Source: Candidatus Saccharimonadota bacterium
GTDB lineage: Bacteria; Patescibacteriota; Saccharimonadia; Saccharimonadales; Saccharimonadaceae
Reading direction: 5' to 3'
Length of the DNA stretch: 64,000 nt
Assembly (NCBI GenBank): GCA_017431465.1
Contig: JAFRLA010000012.1
Location: forward strand, 1-64,000
Shown in pieces: positions 31,354-33,796 of this stretch. The position numbers and the translations under genes were made by a program. Numbering within the stretch: position 1 is the first letter of the stretch; every line of letters starts with the position of its first letter. Under the pieces are notes generated by a model that was given only the letters and a program-made list of their open reading frames with translations, did no database searches and had not been told where the DNA came from.

Positions 31354-31872
31354 ATGAAACTAATTGTCGGTTTTGGCAACCCAGAGGCGAAGTATAACTT
31401 TACGCGCCACAATTTCGGCTTCCTCGCCCTAGATTTTTACGCCAAAATCAAGGGGTTATCCTGGGAGAAAAACCCTAAGTTCGACGCCATTTACCTAAAA
31501 AGTGGCGACAACGTCTTTATTAAGCCTCAGACTTACTATAACAACGCCGGAAAATCCGTCCAAGCCTTCGCGCATTTTTACAAAATCCCCCCTGAAAAAT
31601 GCCTAATTCTCTGCGACGATTTTAACCTCGATTTTGGCGCCATTCGCTTTCGCGAAAAAGGCTCCGCCGGCGGCAACAACGGCTTAAAATCCACAATTTC
31701 TGAACTCGGCACCTCTGAATTCCCGCGCCTCCGCCTCGGCACAGGGAACGACGAGCTCCGCGCCAAAATCGGCGACTACGACTTCGTTCTCTCTAAATTC
31801 ACCCCCGAAGAGCGCGAAAAACTCCCCGAAATTCTCCGCAAAATCTCCGAGAAGATAGACGAATTACTTTAG
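31354..31872 (+). CDS. pth: Peptidyl-tRNA hydrolase
   Basis: Releases tRNA from stalled peptidyl-tRNA. The 172-residue protein shows VGFGNPEAKYNFTRHNFGF (catalytic His in TRHN), KPQTYYNNAGKSV, LCDDFNLDFGAIRFREKGSAGGNNG (Asp and the GGHNG-type motif, here GGNNG) and the FPRLRLG stretch. The open frame extends 135 nt upstream, but those codons encode an unrelated hydrophobic stretch and include the promoter; 31354 matches family starts and the -10 spacing. Its end overlaps convergent dprA by 9 bp. Confidence 0.93.
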   Translation: MKLIVGFGNPEAKYNFTRHNFGFLALDFYAKIKGLSWEKNPKFDAIYLKSGDNVFIKPQTYYNNAGKSVQAFAHFYKIPPEKCLILCDDFNLDFGAIRFREKGSAGGNNGLKSTISELGTSEFPRLRLGTGNDELRAKIGDYDFVLSKFTPEEREKLPEILRKISEKIDELL

Positions 31873-32832
31873 CATCCAGCTATTCATACCCAGACTCTTG
31901 ACAATATCGCGAATTTCCAGCATAGTTATTGCTTGATTAAATTCCGCCGCCGGGACTGCAAGTCTAGCAATAATCTCATCGCCATCGCGAACACCGCTTG
32001 CAATCTGCTTAACAATCTGTTTTTCCAGCGGGGAACCGCCGAAAATGCCGCTCTGTCGCCGCTTTTTCGCGCCAGTTTCGCTAACATCACCCCAGATATT
32101 CTCGCCTCTCGCCAATCTAACCGCATACGGCTCAATCAAATCCGCCGGCCGCAGGTACGGCTCCGCCCCTTTCTTAATTAACTGATTGCATCCCGCCGAC
32201 GTTACCCGCGTAATATCCGCTGGCGCGGCATACAAATCTCGCCCCTGTTCTAAAGCGTGCGAAGCGGTATTCAGTGACCCCGAATGCTCCGCCGCCTCAG
32301 CAATCAAAACCGCATCCGATAGCCCTGAAATCAGCCGATTTCGAGCCAAAAACCGCAGTTTACCGACCTCGCCGCGCCCGCCACCACTGTTAGCGCGCCG
32401 ATCCTGATTCTGTCCGCCGTTCAAAACGCATTCTTTATCTCCCGGCCCATACTCCGAGATAATCGCTCCGCCGCCCCTGATAATCTCCTCAGCTAACCCC
32501 TGGTGTTTCCGCGGGTAAATCTGGTCAATTGGCGTCCCTAAAACCGCCAGAGTTATCCCTCCAGCGTCCAGCGCCCCTCTATGCGCAATTGAATCTATCC
32601 CGTACGCCAGCCCCGAAACTACTATCATCCCCGCTTTAGCGCACTCATACGCCGCCCGATAGGCTATCTCCTCTCCATACGCAGTATTCTTGCGTGCACC
32701 CACAATTGCAACTGTAATAACACGTTTTTCCGGTATTTTTCCAGCATAATACAATATTTTAGGCTTAAGCGCAATGCTACTTAACCCCTCTGTAAATTTC
32801 CCCTCTTGGGGTCGAATTTGGTTGATTTTCAT
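31864..32832 (-). CDS. dprA: DNA-processing protein DprA
   Basis: Loads RecA on incoming single-stranded DNA during natural transformation. The 322-residue protein has the Rossmann-like core: VAIVGARKNTAYG, VVSGLAYGIDSIAHRGAL, VLGTPIDQIYPRKH, ISEYGPG, and RNRLISGLSDAVLIAEA; a C-terminal winged-helix-type region follows. Between ISEYGPG and FLARNRLISG there is an extra Gly/Asn/Arg-rich segment of roughly 20 residues compared with the usual short PPG..P..F linker. I start at the ATG at 32832; the longer frame encodes unlikely sequence. Uptake of external DNA as a nucleotide source is plausible for this lifestyle. Confidence 0.88.
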   Translation of the reverse strand: MKINQIRPQEGKFTEGLSSIALKPKILYYAGKIPEKRVITVAIVGARKNTAYGEEIAYRAAYECAKAGMIVVSGLAYGIDSIAHRGALDAGGITLAVLGTPIDQIYPRKHQGLAEEIIRGGGAIISEYGPGDKECVLNGGQNQDRRANSGGGRGEVGKLRFLARNRLISGLSDAVLIAEAAEHSGSLNTASHALEQGRDLYAAPADITRVTSAGCNQLIKKGAEPYLRPADLIEPYAVRLARGENIWGDVSETGAKKRRQSGIFGGSPLEKQIVKQIASGVRDGDEIIARLAVPAAEFNQAITMLEIRDIVKSLGMNSWMLK

Positions 32833-32851
32833 AAAAAATGTGAAAAAAGTG

Positions 32852-32880
32852 TTGACTTTTTTTAAACGCTGTGATATAAT
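32852..32880 (+). promoter_or_regulatory. Strong promoter of a structured RNA
   Basis: TTGACT, 17-bp spacer, TGATATAAT; predicted start about 32887. Confidence 0.85.
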
Positions 32881-32886
32881 GAAATA

Positions 32887-33212
32887 AGTTAGGGGCAAAA
32901 CCCTTACTTGCACCTAAATAATCAATAATTCCTGATATCTAGTATATCAGAAATTGCGTGTTCTTAAAACCCTTTCGGGGCTTAAAACTTCTAAATGTTC
33001 TAAGTCTTCATAAGTATTACCTCCACTTAGAAAGGGACCACCCTTTAAGAACATAGCAATCCCTCAAACGGGCGGGCCCCTGTGTTTGTGTGAGGTGGGT
33101 CGCGCTTCCGGGGTTCCCGGTATTCTTTCACATTAGAAGCGTTTGAGGGCCAAAAAGGCCACAGGACTTAGGTGATGCCCACCCTTACCTAACTCGTGTG
33201 GCCTTTTTGGTT
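32887..33212 (+). ncRNA. Unassigned structured RNA, about 325 nt
   Basis: A non-coding unit with its own strong promoter and an exceptional terminator. Helices visible by eye: CTGATAT/ATATCAG (32932-32950); TGTTCTTAAA/TTTAAGAACA (32959-32968 with 33044-33053), enclosing TTCTAAGT/ACTTAGAA (32998-33005 with 33025-33032); CCCTCAAACG/CGTTTGAGGG (33061-33070 with 33140-33149), enclosing CCGGG-GTT-CCCGG; and a 14-bp terminator stem (33150-33163 with 33197-33210). Size and autonomy would suit RNase P RNA or tmRNA, but I find neither the RNase P core motifs nor a tRNA-like 3' end, so the class remains open. Confidence 0.7.
33150..33212 (+). terminator. Long terminator hairpin of the structured RNA
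   Basis: CCAAAAAGGCCACA pairs perfectly with TGTGGCCTTTTTGG; the loop itself contains a near-perfect ACTTAGGT/ACCTAACT stem. Confidence 0.8.
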
Positions 33213-33232
33213 GTCCAAAAATTTATATATTG

Positions 33233-33241
33233 TGTTATAAT
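33233..33241 (+). promoter_or_regulatory. Extended -10 of the membrane protein gene
   Basis: TGTTATAAT ends 6 nt before the ATG at 33248. Confidence 0.7.
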
Positions 33242-33247
33242 AAGCTT

Positions 33248-33796
33248 ATGAATAAAACCTTAAAAACGATCCTTAGCGTCGCCGTCATTGGCGTTTTATT
33301 GTATTTTCTAGTTTGGCCTTGGATTAATTCCGCGATCTCTTCTGGCTATCATATTAAAGCCATTACTGAAGGATATCCGAGCCAATCTTATACTGCTGAT
33401 TTCGGAAAAGATGAGCTCTCGGTTAAAGTCGAACATTATAACAACGTCGCCACCGACGAAAAAACCTCTGAAGAAACCGAAAATTACTCTATAGAAATCA
33501 ACGAGGAGCTTTATAATAAACTGAGATCAGTCGCAAATTCCTTCCTCGGATTCCATCTGTTTGTGCGCCATCATAACGGCTACGCCTTCTTCTACGAATC
33601 TGCCGACGGCGCTGCCATGTTCTTTACTAACGAAGAAAAAGAAAACCTCTTAGACTTCGCTAAAATCCTAACCAATATCTCGCGTGGCGATGAAAAATGG
33701 CCGGAAAAGCGTCGTGAAACTTACTTCGACCACGGGACAAAACAGCTGGACGAATACATCAAGGAGCACGGAATTGAAGTCCCGCCGCTAGAATAA
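33248..33796 (+). CDS. Membrane-anchored hypothetical protein
   Basis: A 182-residue protein with one N-terminal TM helix (about 6-26, ILSVAVIGVLLYFLVWPWI) and an acidic, probably extracytoplasmic domain of about 150 residues. I recognise no family. The ATG at 33248 directly starts the signal-anchor and has leaderless spacing. It lies between the structured RNA and topA, which has its own promoter. Confidence 0.65.
   Translation: MNKTLKTILSVAVIGVLLYFLVWPWINSAISSGYHIKAITEGYPSQSYTADFGKDELSVKVEHYNNVATDEKTSEETENYSIEINEELYNKLRSVANSFLGFHLFVRHHNGYAFFYESADGAAMFFTNEEKENLLDFAKILTNISRGDEKWPEKRRETYFDHGTKQLDEYIKEHGIEVPPLE

Follow-up and report, generated by a model that had tools for sequence, protein, structure and literature searches.

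Bacteria and their phages carry several large, ornate RNAs whose function is unclear, such as OLE, GOLLD, ROOL and raiA, some of which occur in phages, and also regulatory small RNAs with C-rich loops, such as RsaE/RoxS, the cuckoo RNAs and those of Staphylococcus or the alphaproteobacteria. The Saccharibacteria are ultrasmall bacteria of wide distribution that live as episymbionts on other bacteria, in the human mouth among other places. Phages can also use pieces of host RNAs, and the Racr RNAs, solitary CRISPR-repeat RNAs of phages, act as RNA-based anti-CRISPRs (PMC10651486).

The RNA gene described here, at positions 32887-33212 (+ strand) of the window, that is, of the whole stretch of 64,000 nucleotides analysed, resembles each of these systems in part. 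As with the Racr RNAs (PMC10651486), phages carry, as solitary units, the putative protein-recognised part of a host RNA, and in both cases a fixed recognition element is found outside its native context, which makes the Racrs the closest precedent in strategy; the host RNA here, however, is a single-copy, order-wide RNA that is not CRISPR-like and has no known protein, and its fixed element is a loop borne on freely changing stems. The gene also shares with the housekeeping 6S RNA, tmRNA, RNase P RNA and SRP RNA a single copy, a strong promoter, its own terminator and a near-universal presence in the lineage, but it is restricted to one order and matches no Rfam family in sequence or structure, and the known housekeeping RNAs either sit elsewhere in the genome or are missing along with their protein. 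The RNA shares with RsaE/RoxS and the cuckoo RNAs exposed loops that are rich in C and might pair with G-rich start regions, whereas its conserved architecture is much longer, its loops are invariant over an order and no start-site pairing signal was observed in its own genome. Finally, the RNA is conserved and structured like OLE, GOLLD, ROOL and raiA, and differs from them in the absence of an Rfam match and in that phages carry isolated modules of it instead of the whole RNA.

On the evidence of its sequence, 32887-33212 is a real structured-RNA gene. Its transcript would start at about 32887, downstream of an extended -10 promoter (TTGACT, 17 nt, TGA-TATAAT; 32852-32880, + strand) in which the -35 box TTGACT lies at 32852-32857 and the -10 box TATAAT, with TG ahead of it, at 32875-32880; TTGACT-17-TGATATAAT has 11 of the 12 consensus bases in addition to TGn. 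The transcript would end at a terminator whose 14-bp stem is formed by CCAAAAAGGCCACA (33150-33163) and TGTGGCCTTTTTGG (33197-33210), and the gene is presumably expressed. The sequence-only reading had called these the best promoter and terminator of the window, and the strong promoter and the 14-bp stem stood up. For the promoter, "best" is slightly overstated, as two other sites in the window equal its score in a three-way tie. The terminator is one of only three window stems of at least 12 bp with a short loop. A promoter with a score of at least 9 was found upstream of 49 of 61 non-redundant homologues, with a 17-nt spacing in 48 and a TGn in 47 of these 49. The mechanical open reading frame of the neighbouring dprA gene (- strand) extends to 32913, and the conserved start of the protein (MKIN...) places the gene at 31864-32832. 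The description of the locus as a structured RNA devoid of an open reading frame was borne out as well, since no frame of at least 60 amino acids was found on the + strand inside the gene, and the minimum free energy of the fold was -122.8 kcal/mol compared with -87.3 +/- 5.3 kcal/mol for shuffled sequences (z = -6.74; 0 of 100 shuffles).

The predicted fold consists of seven helical elements, P1 to P7, and three C-rich, nearly invariant segments, a, b and d, that are predicted to be single-stranded. The 5' hairpin P1 (32885-32910), found in the minimum free energy fold and in two group alignments, varies in sequence across species and is followed by segment a (32910-32921), which reads GCACCUAAAUAA here and GCACCUUAUACCCCCUAUUCUAAC in other genera, is nearly invariant within each group and can be written as ACCUUAUACCCCCUAUU or ACCUAAAUAA. 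A variable hairpin of the minimum free energy fold, P2 (32932-32950), precedes the covarying long-range helix P3 (32953-33060; AUUGC/GCAAU plus GUUCUUAAA/UUUAAGAAC), which has an equivalent in other genera and encloses P3b and the hairpin of segment b (33012-33028). In the latter, an invariant loop is held between AAGU and ACUU (AAGU-AUUACCUCC-ACUU, elsewhere UACCCUCCACUU), with UACC(C)UCCAC as its consensus. The 3' half comprises P4 (33061-33149), in which CCCUCAAAC (33061-33069) pairs with GUUUGAGGG (33141-33149), P5 (33071-33106; GGCGGGCCCC...GUGAGGUGGGUCGCGCU), the variable P6 (33103-33141; CGCUUC/GAAGCG and CCGGG/CCCGG), whose place is taken by different hairpins in other genera, and the 3' hairpin and terminator P7 (33150-33210), whose 14-bp lower stem covaries. 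Segment d, AGGUGAUGCCCACCCUUACCU, occupies the apical part of P7 (33170-33190); its consensus is G-A/G-UGCCCACCC, and the core UGCCCACCC (33176-33184) is invariant and is found in phages too. Averaged over the homologues, the predicted unpaired probability was 0.78 for a, 0.83 for b and 0.87 for d, compared with 0.35 for the whole RNA. In one Saccharibacterial genome (L112, 549-620), a tandem pair of d hairpins stands at the 3' end of the RNA.

Two sequence groups were aligned separately over their full length, and the 3' halves were aligned jointly. In the joint 3'-half alignment, 94.8% of the cells were paired and both members had changed in 22 of 34 pairs; this set had a covariation score of 0.334, compared with 0.146 for shuffled alignments (0 of 500) and at most 0.081 for slid ones. 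Double changes affected 6 of 10 pairs in P4 and 5 of 9 in P5, and the full-length group alignments gave the same covariation picture for P3, the inner helices of P3, P4 and P5. The stem of P7 is fully replaced in distant families (AGGU/ACCU, GAGC/GCUC, CAGU/ACUG) while the core UGCCCACCC is kept. A pseudoknot between the d loop and GGUGGG (P5) or GGGUGGG (before P4) is unsupported as the reason for the invariance of d, since these partners vary or are used in P5 and P4 while d remains fixed. A pairing of segment a with the 3' strand of P4, proposed by RNAalifold, loses to the covarying P4, and the reading frame AUG CCC ACC CUU in the d loop is non-coding, every base of it being conserved without a conserved stop.

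A DNA search found relatives of the gene in 133 of the 199 genomes of its own family, driven by the invariant 21-mer AGGTGATGCCCACCCTTACCT, and a search for this exact 21-mer in 84,980 species genomes returned at least 115 stretches, almost only from Saccharibacteria among the matches listed. With a covariance model built from the 3' half of the RNA, a short-calibrated model whose E-values are rough, homologues were detected in 246 of the 295 genomes of the order Saccharibacteria, distributed over 95 of 123 genera and more than 20 family-level groups, and almost always in one copy per genome. Conservation of the helices in relatives had been set beforehand as a test by the sequence-only reading, and conservation was found, in these 246 genomes and with covariation far above the shuffled and slid controls. 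The same model gave no hit in about 345 Patescibacteria genomes outside the order, under strict filters with which very diverged copies could be missed. Of the suggestion that this is a CPR-specific RNA class, the lineage specificity is supported, but the lineage is a single order and not the CPR as a whole. The two copies seen in G138 and G173 are only apparent, contig ends having cut the RNA. One complete homologue, adjoining dprA, lies on a contig labelled Chloroflexi (PMG_070), which is probably mislabelled or part of a mixed bin. A DNA uptake sequence was rejected because there is one copy per genome. In a literature search, no description of this RNA or of any Saccharibacteria-specific structured RNA was found, and the available portions of the work on cultured Saccharibacteria (PMC10768705, PMC10633639) do not mention such an RNA.

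The RNA is not always in one piece. In G087, the RNA adjoining dprA has the promoter, segment b, P4 and P5 and ends in an ordinary terminator without d, and about 1.3 kb from it the opposite strand holds a separate unit with a promoter, a long d hairpin and a T-run. This split was seen in one genome, which is 64% complete, and agrees with the phage copies described below, so d can exist apart from the remainder of the RNA.

The first outlier among the matches to the 21-mer was a contig labelled Antrihabitans (L057), in which the 21-mer forms part of a long hairpin that lacks the other parts of the RNA. In a viral collection, the exact 21-mer was present in 16 contigs and the family-type loop GYGATGCCCACCCTTRC in 53 contigs, the latter in 48 distinct contexts, 37 of which are hairpins with at least 5 further pairs and unrelated stems. 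In these 37 hairpins the two closing bases of the loop covary (T..A in 29, C..G in 7, mixed in 1). The loop of other Saccharibacterial families, GCGGTGCCCACCCCCTC, was found in 44 viral contexts, of which 31 are hairpins that all carry the exact string, whereas most stemless near-matches differ from it. Altogether, 68 distinct phage stem-loops present the 3' (d) loop on unrelated stems, counts that include the terminator of the single full-length copy in viral contig L336. A composition-matched shuffled core was found in 8 contigs of the same collection (2 distinct) and never on a stem, and at random sites at least 4 pairs occur in 2%. Solitary elements of the host RNA are thus present in phage genomes, as in the case of the Racrs, and the shuffled-core control was negative.

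The 5' domain is also found alone, in four viral loci (L057, L288, L295 and L357) that all fold alike, with segment a, a CUAAC/GUUAG hairpin and a b-bearing hairpin whose stem doubles as terminator; since viral contigs were examined as pieces, a phage in which only d was seen may have the 5' domain outside its piece. L057 contains both halves, about 520 nt apart. The label of this contig is that of an actinobacterium, Antrihabitans sp. YC2-6, and its phage-like region has a GC content of 47-54%; this points either to a mixed assembly or to a phage that also enters the actinobacterium on which Saccharibacteria live. The carrier contigs encode portal, terminase, capsid, tail and lysis genes. L336 contains phage recombination and methyltransferase genes and both a phage hairpin and a cell-like full-length copy, which can be explained by a provirus next to the host gene or by a copy carried on a phage; their co-occurrence ties the hairpins to the Saccharibacteria lineage. 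Saccharibacteria are presumably the hosts of the loop-carrying phages, and phages with predicted Saccharibacterial hosts, some of them also targeted by Actinobacteria, have been described (PMC10746230). No copy was found in isolate phages and plasmids, the best phage matches being short partial identities, mostly in coding sequence. A group of phage hairpins (in L302, L306, L312, L317, L325 and L327) shares a wider context, with GTTGAT before and CCAGC..GCTGG after the stem-loop, and may represent a distinct phage RNA with two hairpins.

Different explanations for the cellular gene were weighed. Its size, strong promoter, single copy and near-universal presence in the order would suit a diverged universal RNA, namely RNase P RNA, tmRNA, SRP RNA or 6S RNA, as the sequence-only reading had considered. 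The Rfam search which that reading had proposed was run, and Rfam 15 gave no match above the gathering score at the locus, with chance-level hits only below it, and none in 20 diverse homologue loci. RNase P RNA (RF00010; C6:19210-19549, 245 bits) and tmRNA (RF00023; C6:14622-14976, 90 bits) are located on a different contig of the source genome, and neither model matched at 32887-33212, where ARAGORN found no tmRNA either. SRP RNA was absent from the whole source genome with both models (RF00169 and RF01854) and from all of 60 relatives, and the Ffh M domain was absent from the source genome and from each of 60 genomes of the order, with 14 of 14 controls positive; a search for the SRP GTPase domain gave short, weak P-loop-type hits only. 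Without an Ffh M domain in the order there would be no SRP to serve, and the gene is thus no SRP RNA in disguise. Judging from these searches, the order seems to have no signal recognition particle, a pathway that, to our knowledge, is usually held to be universal in bacteria. The 6S RNA model (RF00013), which also missed most control genomes, had no match in the source genome, and the predicted fold has no 5'-3' closing rod of the 6S type. These results contradict the universal-RNA explanation in every case but that of a very diverged 6S RNA, and we regard it as highly improbable. The genomic context offers another explanation, that the RNA controls dprA, and with it competence, through the common intergenic region, by overlapping divergent promoters or antisense overlap. 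The upstream neighbour is indeed a divergent, head-to-head dprA in 50 of 60 non-redundant loci, and dprA again adjoins the RNA in loci of other families found by the model alone; moreover, in 15 of 61 loci the -35 box of the RNA is interleaved with a reverse TTGACA (TTGAC..TGTCAA; window region 32833-32880), which suggests a divergent promoter common to both genes. Nevertheless, the RNA lies away from dprA in several genomes and is still conserved there, and control of dprA would leave the invariant loops unexplained, as well as the phage loop copies, which occur without dprA; we judge this explanation very unlikely. The passages searched in studies of cultured strains (PMC10768705, PMC10633639) show that competence genes, dprA among them, are conserved and that Saccharibacteria can be transformed, which makes deletion tests feasible. 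On the other side of the RNA, the neighbour differs in family and strand across the 60 non-redundant loci, and for this reason the RNA is not a leader. In the window, this neighbour is a small gene (33230-33796) that matches no Pfam family, encodes a membrane segment at the N terminus and is not a conserved neighbour of the RNA, and a leader RNA of this gene was discarded on these grounds; a cis-acting leader in general (riboswitch, T-box or ribosomal protein leader) was rejected because the downstream gene varies while the RNA keeps its own conserved terminator hairpin. The variable downstream gene, together with the genomes in which the RNA is located away from dprA, argues that the RNA acts in trans.

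An RNA acting in trans might do so by base pairing, its C-rich loops binding the G-rich translation start sites of many mRNAs and the phage copies serving as free seed hairpins. Loops b and d are C-rich and predicted to be exposed, and b of the window group contains ACCUCC, the anti-Shine-Dalgarno core. When loops a, b and d were compared with 320 predicted start regions (about 270 kb of the own genome), however, pairing was no better than with composition-matched shuffled loops, while the 16S tail paired with the same regions above its shuffles, in a test that is modest because the start sites are predicted. With no excess of start-region pairing, an anti-Shine-Dalgarno regulator was rejected; no conserved complement to the loops was found near the RNA gene, and a single seed invariant across an order despite many targets would be unusual. 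We consider base pairing with many start sites unlikely. The phage hairpins, for their part, might not be decoys but cis elements of phage RNA that borrow a host RNA-binding protein of the cellular RNA for 5'-end stability, translation, antitermination or packaging. In 20 of 40 non-redundant A-type phage hairpins a -10 box lies a few bases upstream, compared with a background of 5.7%, so that half of the hairpins begin at an inferred transcript 5' end, and many have a same-strand gene within 25-150 nt downstream; a cis role fits many of these sites as well as a decoy role does. It agrees less well with the T-run found directly after 11 A-type hairpins, which predicts stand-alone RNAs of about 45 nt, with the mixed overall orientation of the downstream genes and with the 5'-domain copies, which are separate terminated units. 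Cis elements are, in our opinion, a possible but rather unlikely purpose of the phage copies. A decoy needs the binding site only, which is what the phages keep, and on this basis the decoy role is ranked first and the cis element second; a helper copy is disfavoured because a helper would need the whole RNA.

Taking these points together, we think it probable that the gene encodes a new, stable structured RNA, common to the Saccharibacteria lineage, which acts in trans and binds a constant partner through its loops, and that the phage mini-RNAs mimic these loops, most likely as decoys. A single-copy gene with its own strong promoter and terminator would produce an RNA of about 250-330 nt, in which the covarying helices P3, P4, P5 and P7 would serve as a scaffold that presents the C-rich segments a, b and d. 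These segments hardly change while their surroundings covary, from which we infer that they contact a constant cellular partner, either a protein or an invariant RNA. Such a partner is suggested by loops that are both invariant and exposed, by a d loop for which any stem will do and by phages in which the loops alone are kept, and the phage copies point to a cell component bound by the loops which viruses compete for or use. The d stem-loop would be an autonomous module, split off in one cell and carried alone by phages, while other phages carry the 5' domain with a and b as what would be a separate small RNA. These copies would most likely occupy the partner as decoys, and the cellular RNA may be a global regulator or the core of a ribonucleoprotein worth disabling or capturing during infection. 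A more far-reaching version of this proposal, which we advance tentatively, is that the RNA works across the lineage as a modular ribonucleoprotein, with 5' and 3' modules capable of acting in trans, and that a wide range of phages have evolved minimal RNA versions of each module with which they seize or block it. The arms race would then be fought at the RNA level, with a housekeeping RNA and not CRISPR at stake.

The RNA is likely to be important to the cell, because a single copy is kept across an order of bacteria with reduced genomes. The phages reveal which of its parts matter, since the invariant loops are retained in them and the scaffold is lost, and the stem-loop of about 35 nt would provide a short bait for finding the partner. 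The loop sequence signature could, in addition, help to assign phages to Saccharibacteria. If the decoy reading is true, these phages would interfere with their hosts by mimicking a cellular RNA that is not part of a CRISPR system.
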